A stretch of DNA of 64,000 nucleotides. It comes from Rhodanobacter sp. DHB23 (GTDB lineage: Bacteria; Pseudomonadota; Gammaproteobacteria; Xanthomonadales; Rhodanobacteraceae). The stretch's first letter is position 1. The number at the start of each line of letters is the position of its first letter. The notes under the pieces are model-generated. The model was not told where the DNA came from, searched no databases, and saw only the letters and a list, made by a program, of their open reading frames with translations. The DNA is taken from NCBI RefSeq assembly GCF_014842975.1, contig NZ_JACYXK010000020.1, positions 62,001-126,000 on the forward strand, written 5' to 3'. This document shows, in pieces, positions 9,942 to 58,100 of this stretch. The position numbers and the translations under genes were made by a program.

Positions 9942-10200
9942 AGAGCCTGTCCAGTATCTCCGCGTTGCCTTGCCGTGGCCATCGAGTGGCAGTGCGTGGC
10001 GCAGCGCCTGCCCGGTTTGGCAGGCCAAGCCGCGTGCCACTGCATGGCGGCCATGGCAAGGCAACCCATGAGGATCGGGTCTGTTTGCGCGCACGCCGGC
10101 GTCATCACCCGGTCGTGGACGAACGTCCACTTCCCTATTCACCTGGCCTGCGCGCAAACAGCTCCCAGTGCGTGCGATCCGGAGATAGCTGGACAGGCCC
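9942..10200. repeat. Palindromic dispersed element, copy A
   Basis: About 259 bp, bounded by AGAGCCTGTCCAGTATCTCC at the left and GGAGATAGCTGGACAGGCCC at the right (imperfect terminal inverted repeats). Inside are two hairpins. Hairpin I has outer arms GTTGCCTTGCCGTGGCC/GGCCATGGCAAGGCAAC and apical stem CCTGCC/GGCAGG. Hairpin II has 13-bp arms CTGTTTGCGCGCA/TGCGCGCAAACAG enclosing GTGGACG-AA-CGTCCAC. It fills the gap between the divergent sdhAF4 and ygfZ, so it may affect both promoters. Copies B and C are at 19196 and 48944. Confidence 0.85.
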
Positions 10201-19195: not shown

Positions 19196-19463
19196 AGAGC
19201 CTGTTCCATATCTCCACGTGGCCCGCGTTGCCCATGAATGGCCGCCAGGTGGTCGTGCGCGGCGTAGCGCCTGCCTGACTGGCAGATCAAGCCGCACGCT
19301 GCCGCATGGTGGCCATTCATGGGCAACCCTATGGGCCGAGTCTGTTTGCCCACATGCCGGCGTCATCACTCGGTCGTGGACGGACGTCCACTCCTTCGTT
19401 CTTCCTTAGCCTGCGCGCAAACAGCTTCCGGCGCGGGCCACGTGGAGATATGGAACAGGCTCT
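19196..19463. repeat. Palindromic dispersed element, copy B (best preserved)
   Basis: 268 bp beginning on the base after the emrB stop. The terminal inverted repeats match perfectly over 32 bp; they begin AGAGCCTGTTCCATATCTCC and end GGAGATATGGAACAGGCTCT. Inside, hairpin I has perfect 17-bp arms GTTGCCCATGAATGGCC/GGCCATTCATGGGCAAC with apical CTGCC/GGCAG, and hairpin II has CTGTTTGC/GCAAACAG around GTGGACG-GA-CGTCCAC. No transposase is encoded, and no target-site duplication is evident. Confidence 0.9.
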
Positions 19464-36960: not shown

Positions 36961-37046
36961 GCCGGTGTGGCGGAATGGTAGACGCGGCGGACTCAAAATC
37001 CGCTTCTGGCGACAGAGTGGAGGTTCGAGTCCTCTCACCGGTACCA
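36961..37046 (+). tRNA. tRNA-Leu (CAA)
   Basis: 86 bases including the encoded CCA. Acceptor GCCGGTG pairs with CACCGGT (one G-T pair), anticodon arm GCGGA-CTCAAAA-TCCGC gives anticodon CAA, the long variable arm is typical of leucine tRNAs, and the T-arm contains GGTTCGAGTCC. Decodes UUG. Confidence 0.97.
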
Positions 37047-47566: not shown

Positions 47567-48958
47567 ATGCAGGATTCCAGCGCGCCCCAGCCCGTCCGCG
47601 GCAACGGCTTCCACCGCTCCATCGGCCTGTTCTCGGGCACCGCGATCAACATGACGCAGATGTGCGGCATCGGGCCGTTCATCACCATCCCCATCATGGT
47701 CGCCGCGATGGGCGGCCCGCAGGCGGTGATCGGCTGGATCGCCGGCGCCATCCTCGCGATGGCCGACGGCCTGGTCTGGGCCGAGCTGGGCGCGGCCATG
47801 CCCGGCTCCGGCGGCACCTACGTCTACCTGCGCGAAGCGTTCCAGTACCGCACCGGCAAGCTGATGCCGTTCCTGTTCATCTGGACGATGCTGCTGGCGA
47901 TTCCGTTGCTGATGTCCACCGGCATCATCGGCATGGTGGAGTACCTGGAGTTCTTCTTCCCCGGCCTCGGCTGGTGGCCGGTGCACCTCATCGGCGTGGC
48001 GGCGACCGCGCTAGTCACCTGGCTGCTGTATCGGCGCATCGAGTCGGTGCGCGCGATCACCGTCGCGCTGTGGGTGATCATGCTGGTCTCGGTCGTCGGC
48101 GTGGCCGCGGCGGGCTTCTCGCATTTCAACGCGGGCTACGCCTTCGCCTGGCCGGCCGGCGCGTTCGGCAGCAAGTTCTTCATGGGACTGGGCGCGGGGC
48201 TAGTGATCGGCATCTACGACTACCTCGGCTACAACACCACCGCCTACATCGGCGACGAGCTGCGCAACCCGGGCCGCACGATGCCCGGCTCGATCATCAT
48301 CTCGGTGATCGCGATGATGTTCGTCTACCTCGCGCTCAACATCAGCGTGCTCGGCGTGGCGCCGTGGCAGGAAATCGCGCAATCGAAATCCGTGGCCTCG
48401 CTGGTGGTGGAACGCAGCTGGGGGCATGCGGCCGCAGCGGTGATGACCGTGCTCATCATCGTGACCGCGTTCGCCTCGGTGTTCACCGGCCTGCTGGGCG
48501 GTTCGCGCGTGCCGTTCCAGGCGGCGCAGGAGAAGGTGTTCCTGTCCGTGTTCGGGCGCCTGCACGCCAGGCTCGGTTTCCCGCACGTGGCCCTGCTCAC
48601 GATGGGCGTGGCGACGGCGATCGGCACGTTCTTCGACCTCACCGAAGTCATCAACATGCTGCTGGCCGCGACCATCATCGTGCAGTCGGTGGCGCAGATC
48701 GCCGCGCTGGTGGTGTTGCGCAAGCGCCAGCCGCAACTGGAACGACCGTACAAGCAGTGGCTTTACCCCGTGCCATGCGTGATCGCGCTGGCGGGCTGGA
48801 TCTACGTCTACGTCTCCGCATCCGCCTTGTCGCTGATCCTGTCCGGCGTGTGGATACTCGCCGGGCTGGCAGTGTTCGCGATCTGGGCCAGGGCCAGCCG
48901 CTCGTGGCCGTTCGCGCCGGTCGAAATACATGAAGCCTATTCAAGAGCCTGTTCATGA
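47567..48958 (+). CDS. APC-family permease, C-terminus formed by repeat element
   Basis: A 463-residue, 12-helix amino acid/polyamine/organocation permease: INMTQMCGIGPFITIPIMVAAMGG (first helix), ADGLVWAELGAAMPGSGGTYVYL, GYNTTAYIGDELRNPGRTMPGSIIIS and FTGLLGGSRVPFQAAQE. Substrate unknown; its position between a TonB receptor and exo-glucosaminidase suggests import of glucosamine or a related amino compound (inference). The last five residues (RACS with the preceding Ser, then stop) are encoded by the left end of element copy C, so the natural C-terminus was probably longer or different. Confidence 0.85.
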   Translation: MQDSSAPQPVRGNGFHRSIGLFSGTAINMTQMCGIGPFITIPIMVAAMGGPQAVIGWIAGAILAMADGLVWAELGAAMPGSGGTYVYLREAFQYRTGKLMPFLFIWTMLLAIPLLMSTGIIGMVEYLEFFFPGLGWWPVHLIGVAATALVTWLLYRRIESVRAITVALWVIMLVSVVGVAAAGFSHFNAGYAFAWPAGAFGSKFFMGLGAGLVIGIYDYLGYNTTAYIGDELRNPGRTMPGSIIISVIAMMFVYLALNISVLGVAPWQEIAQSKSVASLVVERSWGHAAAAVMTVLIIVTAFASVFTGLLGGSRVPFQAAQEKVFLSVFGRLHARLGFPHVALLTMGVATAIGTFFDLTEVINMLLAATIIVQSVAQIAALVVLRKRQPQLERPYKQWLYPVPCVIALAGWIYVYVSASALSLILSGVWILAGLAVFAIWARASRSWPFAPVEIHEAYSRACS

Positions 48959-49211
48959 TCTCCACATGGCCCGCGTTGCCTTGCATGGGTCGCCAGGTGG
49001 TAGCGCGTGGCGCAGCGCCTGACTGGCGGTCAGGTCAAGCCGCGTGCTGCCGCATGGCGGCCACTCGATGGCAACCCGCAGGGCCGGGTCTGTTTGCCCG
49101 CATGCCGGCGTCATCACTCGGTCGTGGACGGACGTCCACTCCCCCCTTCTTCCTTGGCCTGCGCGCAAACAGCTCCCGGCGCGGGCCATGCGGAGACCAT
49201 GAACAGGCTCT
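48944..49211. repeat. Palindromic dispersed element, copy C
   Basis: 268 bp; ends AGAGCCTGTTCATGATCTCC and GACCATGAACAGGCTCT are inverted with two mismatches in 32 bp. Hairpin I apical stem is CCTGAC/GTCAGG, hairpin II has CTGTTTGC/GCAAACAG with GTGGACG-GA-CGTCCAC. It overlaps the permease 3' end and fills the gap to the GH2 gene. Confidence 0.9.

Positions 49212-58024: not shown

Positions 58025-58100
<76 letters not shown>

Follow-up and report, generated by a model that had tools for sequence, protein, structure and literature searches.

What is the palindromic element that recurs in this DNA, and why do its two arms change together from copy to copy? The window, meaning the whole stretch of 64,000 nucleotides analysed here, holds copies at 9942–10200 (copy A), 19196–19463 (copy B) and 48944–49211 (copy C). 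All three are assigned to the plus strand, defined as the strand on which hairpin I tolerates G–U pairs. A sequence-only reading had described them as three dispersed copies with terminal inverted repeats, and they are indeed all present. Copy B is a complete element of 268 bp and serves as the reference. Its terminal stem is built from a left arm (positions 1–31, 19196–19226) starting with AGAGCCTGTTC and a right arm (positions 238–268, 19433–19463). Both arms are delimited by covariation and by a perfect 32-bp inverted repeat, as had been claimed for this copy and as our inverted-repeat search recovers. Hairpin I (positions 32–132, 19227–19327) is defined by an inverted repeat, the fold and covariation, and comprises within this interval a freely covarying lower stem (positions 32–46), a G–U-rich upper stem (positions 47–68) and an apical stem (positions 76–80/86–90). 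A mini-hairpin (positions 133–139, 19328–19334), recognized from the fold and from copies in a second bacterial family, where it usually reads CCCGAAG followed by GG, joins it to hairpin II. The latter (positions 140–237, 19335–19432) is seen in the fold, in covariation and in the second-family copies; an outer stem (positions 140–154/222–237) and an apical stem (positions 181–186/191–196) within it are both supported, and it carries the conserved blocks GCGTCATC.CTC and TCTTCCTTG.

The other two copies are less regular. Copy A is decayed, with a 9-base gap in its left terminal arm and a shorter terminal match than in copy B, and lies between divergent genes as called by a home-made gene caller. 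Copy C is complete, with co-directional genes on either side and 32-bp termini that are 94% complementary. The open reading frame upstream of it (47567–48958) ends 15 bases into the element (48944–48958), which supplies its last codons and stop. Copies A and B both yield inverted repeats corresponding to hairpin I and the outer part of hairpin II. Copy C yields hairpin II, and hairpin I is absent from its inverted-repeat list owing to lower arms that do not match in their central part, a disagreement that had been spotted before. This mismatch looks like what recombination between copies would leave behind. The predicted fold of copy B has an energy of −178 kcal/mol, compared with −108.3 kcal/mol (s.d. 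5.1) in 200 shuffles (z = −13.7), so the structure is not due to chance. A chance palindrome is thus ruled out by the fold energy, together with the inverted repeats and the multicopy matches described below.

The copies belong to a family of ∼268-bp elements that extends from the window genome to the level of the order. In the window genome (3.97 Mb, 29 contigs) at least 16 matches span 214 or more of the 268 copy B positions, next to further fragments; 40 of 77 first-look candidates were scored, so that this copy count is a lower bound. Matches are found in 12 of the 15 genomes of the genus. Within the same bacterial family 65 of 147 genomes match, belonging to 16 of 26 genera (five candidates scored per genome), and within the order 96 of 398, belonging to 29 of 98 genera (two candidates scored per genome). 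The order-level matches comprise 65 genomes of the same family, 26 of a second family (f2) and five weak ones elsewhere. Hosts picked up by an exact search for a core pattern include Rhodanobacter, Fulvimonas, Frateuria and Luteimonas. A plasmid or phage origin was considered and rejected, as no record in the plasmid or the phage collection searched with copy B gave a match.

For the alignment, copies were retrieved through BLAST with copy B or L033 or through the exact core pattern, and divergent copies are therefore under-sampled. Hits below 50 bits and 35 partial ones were left out, and 237 distinct copies were kept. A separate set of 29 second-family copies represents 29 of 30 loci (L462, a short match, was left out) from 15 genomes chosen because the order-wide search had already matched them.

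The element is a miniature inverted-repeat transposable element (MITE), a class of repeats in bacteria commonly regarded as deletion remnants of insertion sequences (ISs). At 268 bp it is too small to encode a transposase of its own; it is present in at least 16 near-full-length copies and has 32-bp inverted palindromic ends, a TNA target duplication and an empty site in relatives. Identical TNA triplets are found on both flanks of 56 of the 147 copies with both ends intact (out of 154 considered), where shuffled flanks give a mean of 21.1 and a maximum of 33 in 2000 shuffles; the three bases compared include the terminal A/T. Flank preferences point to CTNAG as the target, and most copies with GGGCC tips lie in CTAG. 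The empty site was followed for one copy, L012. Of the 15 genomes of the genus, 12 contain its joined flanks unbroken, matching 187 or 188 of 188 bases; in the window genome the flanks are separated. Nine of these 12 stretches were cut out. One (L470) did not span the junction, and the other eight read CTGA at the junction, with no second TGA, and carry two to three more bases beside it than the window genome does. The single TGA of the relatives is the stop codon of the upstream gene, and in the window genome the arrangement is TGA–element–TGA. The suspicion that this is a dispersed mobile element is borne out by copy number, target duplication and empty site alike.

A transposase with matching ends is found in relatives, on IS5-type elements carrying DUF4096 and DDE_Tnp_1 genes whose ends and duplication are like those of the MITE; the latter thus has the ends and target expected of an IS5-type derivative. 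In particular, the IS at L141 in a genome of the same genus (G022) encodes DUF4096 and DDE_Tnp_1 proteins between ends of the type GAGCCTGTTCAAAGTCTC, which agree with each other at 21 of 22 positions and match the tips of some copies. The outermost ends of this IS are flanked by TGA/TGA, and in other genomes the flanks are TGA/TGA at L142, TAA/TAA at L143 and TCA/TCA at L156; a single IS end was found at L147 and at L162. PF13340, the one profile used in the transposase search, was found in 20 of 117 genomes and not in the window genome. The profile of the element had no match in the 30 IS loci L134–L163. An IS with the same tip was also sought in the window genome itself: the 23 tip matches include five places outside the scored copies (L129–L133), which show tips or short fragments (with open reading frames listed for two of the five), and this candidate was dropped. 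Mobilization by a matching IS is probable from the shared ends and duplication.

Several loci around these searches are peculiar. L131 (near 2942) and L133 (near 3027) begin with the element tip followed by a short piece of the arm, and the core is missing directly behind; they are possibly minimal derivatives. L015 of the window genome (G000:C21, near 504432–504644) has the same core between very different tips (AGGGTGTGTCCATACATACG) with a TAA duplication, and carries an exchanged set of ends. Genome G016, from the same family, has 17 DUF4096 matches, with matching tips at L143, L156 and, at one end, L162. It has no match to copy B or L033, and is an IS-rich host without the non-autonomous element.

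Next, the predicted fold was compared with the variation among copies. The top 26 column pairs by APC-corrected mutual information over the 237 copies, ranked by this score alone, all lie in the predicted fold of copy B (26 of 26). Watson–Crick pairs were then counted between each copy's own arms and between shuffled arms, the copies having been aligned by sequence alone. Own arms clearly exceed shuffled arms in the terminal stem (positions 12–31; 4249 versus 2993), in the lower stem of hairpin I (3375 versus 2343) and in the apices of hairpin I (1138 versus 944) and hairpin II (1383 versus 1190). The more conserved upper stem of hairpin I (3360 versus 3208) and outer stem of hairpin II (2940 versus 2879) have a slight excess only. 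The inner pairs of hairpin II (positions 160–178) are at the shuffled level in the 237 copies (1061 observed, 1067 shuffled), and their pairing is unsupported. Of the two internal hairpins proposed earlier, hairpin I and the outer stem and apex of hairpin II hold, and the inner part of hairpin II does not. The 29 second-family copies have other tips and about 70–81% identity in the core, and the same helices pair in them (92–99% canonical). When the partners are slid by one to three columns, canonical pairing drops from 92–99% to 12–67% in both bacterial families.

The effect of common ancestry was lessened by using disjoint sister pairs of copies that are alike outside the stem under test. 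Double changes from one Watson–Crick pair to another are far more frequent than expected in the terminal stem (284, with 60.7 expected), in the lower stem (101; 14.8), upper stem (27; 11.4) and apex (18; 1.5) of hairpin I, and in the outer stem (8; 1.6) and apex (10; 0.5) of hairpin II. The arm-to-arm compensation first noticed in three copies therefore extends to the set of 237. This suggests, from the alignments, that the core is under pairing constraint and that its shape, possibly as RNA, is the reason it is kept.

Matched changes could also arise without any function or selection if one arm templates the other, by quasipalindrome correction, folded-strand mismatch repair or conversion. 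Such correction would account for the terminal stem, where double Watson–Crick changes (284) outnumber single-sided ones (260) and 194 distinct left arms (positions 9–26) are found among 237 copies, a diversity for which a protein reading a fixed sequence cannot supply the matching partners. It should however also have removed mismatches that are left uncorrected. At pair 25/244 of the terminal stem A–C is the commonest state (45 of 97 copies), and in hairpin I T–G is the commonest state at 55/109 (87 of 97), 58/106 (65 of 97), 61/103 (66 of 97) and 65/99 (75 of 97). As these states are common to very many copies, simple gene conversion is disfavoured as the only agent. The sequence-only reading had left the choice between a selected structure and gene conversion between arms. 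What stands is that the arms stay complementary, whether selected or templated; what falls is simple gene conversion acting alone.

The two layers of the element are separated by a strand preference. Among one-step variants of Watson–Crick pairs in hairpin I, those present in at least five copies are 16 G–U and two A–C, compared with 17 G–U and 27 A–C among rare variants (Fisher p = 5 × 10⁻⁴, common versus rare; p = 0.07 against the singletons alone, six and five). The common variants are 12 G–U and 10 A–C in the terminal stem (p = 0.035 for hairpin I versus terminal stem) and five and six in hairpin II. In the sister pairs the G–U to A–C counts are 156 to 14 in the upper stem of hairpin I, 43 to 21 in its lower stem and 3 to 5 in its apex, 35 to 13 in the outer stem and 2 to 9 in the apex of hairpin II, and 97 to 123 in the terminal stem. 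The second family behaves similarly, with 122 to 5 in the upper stem of hairpin I and 25 to 23 in the terminal stem. Since a G–U pair on one strand is an A–C pair on the other, the plus strand is the folding strand of the long hairpin I stem. The terminal stem shows no strand preference and hairpin II no clear one. A mutation bias behind the G–U excess was considered and set aside, as the rare variants lack this excess.

The plus strand also runs preferentially with the neighbouring genes. It is co-directional with both neighbours in 104 copies and opposed to both in 41 (p = 1.7 × 10⁻⁷), with divergent neighbours in 37 and convergent ones in 24. This count covers 226 of the 237 copies (those with at least 500 bases on each side), of which 20 lack a called neighbour on at least one side, and relies on the home-made gene caller, a first version of which gave 100:40. 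The ratio is 25:12 in copies with exact duplications (p = 0.047) and 79:29 in those without; it is 12:2 in the window genome and weaker, at 25:17, in copies fetched from other genera. Of the left-hand plus-strand genes, 65 of 132 stop at the edge of the element. A replication-strand bias was looked for in the complete genome G069, where plus strands are leading in nine of 21 copies by hand tally with the origin assumed at coordinate 1. This explanation was rejected, on the weak ground of one genome with an assumed origin.

Neither the one-strand G–U preference of hairpin I nor the gene-orientation bias can be explained by correction between arms, with which the lack of a strand preference in the terminal stem, in common types (12 and 10) and sister pairs alike, agrees well. 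We therefore keep templated correction above all for the terminal stem; alone it is insufficient, and as a full account of the element we consider it unlikely. The alternatives offered by the earlier reading need not exclude each other, since the sequence comparisons point to a terminal stem maintained at the DNA level and a long hairpin I stem that is one-stranded and probably RNA-like.

A further explanation takes the entire fold for a single-stranded DNA substrate, similar to a folded recombination site, that is read in transposition or replication and to which RNA is irrelevant. Single-stranded DNA also tolerates G–T better than A–C, and a terminal stem that is diverse in sequence and conserved in shape fits such a substrate. 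The bias, however, follows gene direction, and the plus strands do not lie on one replication strand in the hand tally of G069 (nine of 21 leading, origin assumed). Furthermore, derivatives lacking intact hairpins spread, so that the terminal stem alone could serve as the substrate. We regard a purely DNA-level role for the whole fold as quite improbable.

These derivatives were found in genome G080, which holds eight of them (121, 132, 160 and 161 bp), all with CT..AG flanks and none with both hairpins whole. The 161-bp derivative keeps hairpin I and the other seven keep neither hairpin whole. The four 160-bp derivatives share their deletion or nearly so and the two 132-bp derivatives share theirs, at different sites. 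The derivatives have thus spread without intact hairpins, which are not needed for spreading. The tips are retained because the derivatives were found by their tips, and this retention is no evidence that tips or terminal stem are needed; stretches with a single tip also exist. Several copies carry a smaller hairpin insert around GAGTCCATCCATGGACTCTCCCCGCGTG (L014 at 1501–1813, L019, L020, L023, L024, L025 and L028), located either in the loop of the mini-hairpin or after the apex of hairpin II. It looks like a second tiny repeat inside the first.

Copies that have come to rest tell where the constraint acts. Two-sided flank matches gave ten pairs, of which 28/83 and 118/139 were dropped as their flanks match at an offset, leaving eight same-site comparisons between species, three of them within one triple. 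Among the 20 changed pairs of 5/8, 71/110, 74/85 and 95/122 there is no double change, and the same holds for the five changed pairs of 4/15. Three double changes each are seen in 4/14 and 14/15, and four that keep Watson–Crick pairing plus one other in 21/126. Copies fixed at one site in two species therefore decay mostly uncompensated, which also fits arm correction confined to movement. Rare variants do not track orientation (29:25 in co-directional and 12:14 in antisense copies). Selection in place after insertion was sought in both the same-site comparisons and the rare variants by orientation, and was seen in neither. Copies with exact duplications have terminal stems no better than the others (p = 0.48), so that an age effect on this stem was likewise discarded. 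Their upper hairpin I stem is slightly worse, with more non-canonical pairs (p = 0.002), and their lower hairpin I stem has fewer non-Watson–Crick pairs (p = 0.01). Together, the uncompensated decay, the orientation-blind rare variants and the stems of the exact-duplication copies speak against preservation of the structure by the host at individual sites. The constraint then acts on the multiplying lineage of copies: at landing, at movement or at both.

From the computed fold and covariation, the one-strand G–U tolerance of hairpin I, the sense bias and the target duplication, we propose a non-autonomous IS5-type MITE whose ends act at the DNA level and whose core is selected partly as an RNA that buffers insertions into operons. 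In the first layer, a 31-bp terminal stem with tips of the GAGCCTGTTC or GGGCC type would be moved by an IS5-type transposase acting in trans into CTNAG or CTAG, in many cases where an upstream gene has its stop codon. During movement the terminal stem would stay self-complementary at the DNA level, through selection for pairing or through templated correction, while its sequence drifts freely. In the second layer, co-transcription of the element with its neighbours would let hairpins I and II form in the plus-strand RNA, and the shape of the core would determine which copies persist and multiply further. Most likely, landing inside an operon would be made harmless to the joined message by a stable, processed or insulating intercistronic spacer. 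Transcription with the operon and folding as RNA in the cell are probable in light of the strand preference and the sense bias, and hairpin II is presumably part of the same RNA as hairpin I. That the core buffers operon insertions, or prevents polarity, is a guess. Two points reduce our confidence in this explanation, the ambiguous strand signal of hairpin II and the tip-based selection of the derivatives, and we give the proposal as a whole an even chance.

A more far-reaching reading is an order-wide mobile RNA: a structured domain of ∼200 nt that travels between operons inside freely changing IS5-type ends and is maintained, for its own spread, through folding in polycistronic host messages, for instance by preventing polarity or by excising itself from the joint. 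This would amount to a new class of transposon-borne RNA. We offer it tentatively, as clearly less probable than the buffered MITE and yet a real possibility.

An ordinary MITE, with message hairpins serving as RNase III or decay sites as in Correia/NEMIS and ERIC and conserved through recent ancestry, would match in size, ends and stable transcripts what PMC10969869 and PMC2229807 describe as typical of MITEs, and is doubtful in much the same degree as the single-stranded DNA substrate, since sister-pair double changes far above chance and the same fold with unrelated arms in a second family exceed shared ancestry.

The pairing constraint on core and ends is in our judgement typical in strength of functional RNA families, and it is found in two bacterial families. 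If our proposal is correct, this would be a selfish element carrying an RNA that makes its own insertions tolerable, and the role of MITE cores would become directly testable. The copies also form a natural data set of hundreds of hairpins that are diverse in sequence and conserved in shape.

The earlier reading recognized no family, and this agrees with our searches. Rfam 15 run over the window returns, at gathering scores, nothing over the copies and two tRNAs only (RF00005, at 36961–37043 and 58025–58097). In five loci searched up to E = 5 no match reaches its gathering score; over an element the top hit is MIR1432 (E = 0.02), and outside the elements MIR8622 (E = 7 × 10⁻⁶) ranks first. A described RNA family was rejected on this basis, and a literature search that reached few subscription journals found no paper describing the element.

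Among known systems the closest is the IS5-type IS with DUF4096 and DDE_Tnp_1 genes, presumably of the IS1031/IS427-like group. It shares with the element its ends (GAGCCTGTTCAAAGTCTC, in some copies) and its TNA duplication, but is ∼850 bp long, carries transposase genes, has matched ends of only ∼20 bp and gives no match to the MITE profile. REP/BIME sequences are palindromic intergenic repeats consisting of short single palindromes and associated with a tyrosine-type transposase. The element, in contrast to these general features, is 268 bp long, duplicates its target and has ends of the IS5 type.

ERIC/RU-1 and YPAL/RU-2 of enterobacteria are likewise intergenic repeats, of 127 and 168 bp and with other ends and duplications. 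Genes and ERIC are transcribed together, and the orientation of ERIC determines how it affects the message (PMC2229807). RNase III cleavage within the ends is reported for Correia transcripts, and MITE transcripts form stable stem-loops (PMC10969869 and PMC2229807). Correia/NEMIS of Neisseria resembles the element as a MITE with long inverted ends and a transcribed hairpin, but has sizes of about 107 and 155 bp and contiguous ends of 24 bp (PMC2229807); the sections consulted of PMC2229807 and PMC10969869 mention no covarying core. The CIR repeats of Caulobacter and Brucella have two long arms and a conserved predicted RNA shape, as does the element, but the table in PMC2229807 lists no terminal inverted repeats for them, and they carry a GANTC site. 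Strong covariation, exchangeable ends and order-wide spread set the element apart from the MITEs described in the sections consulted of PMC10969869 and PMC2229807.
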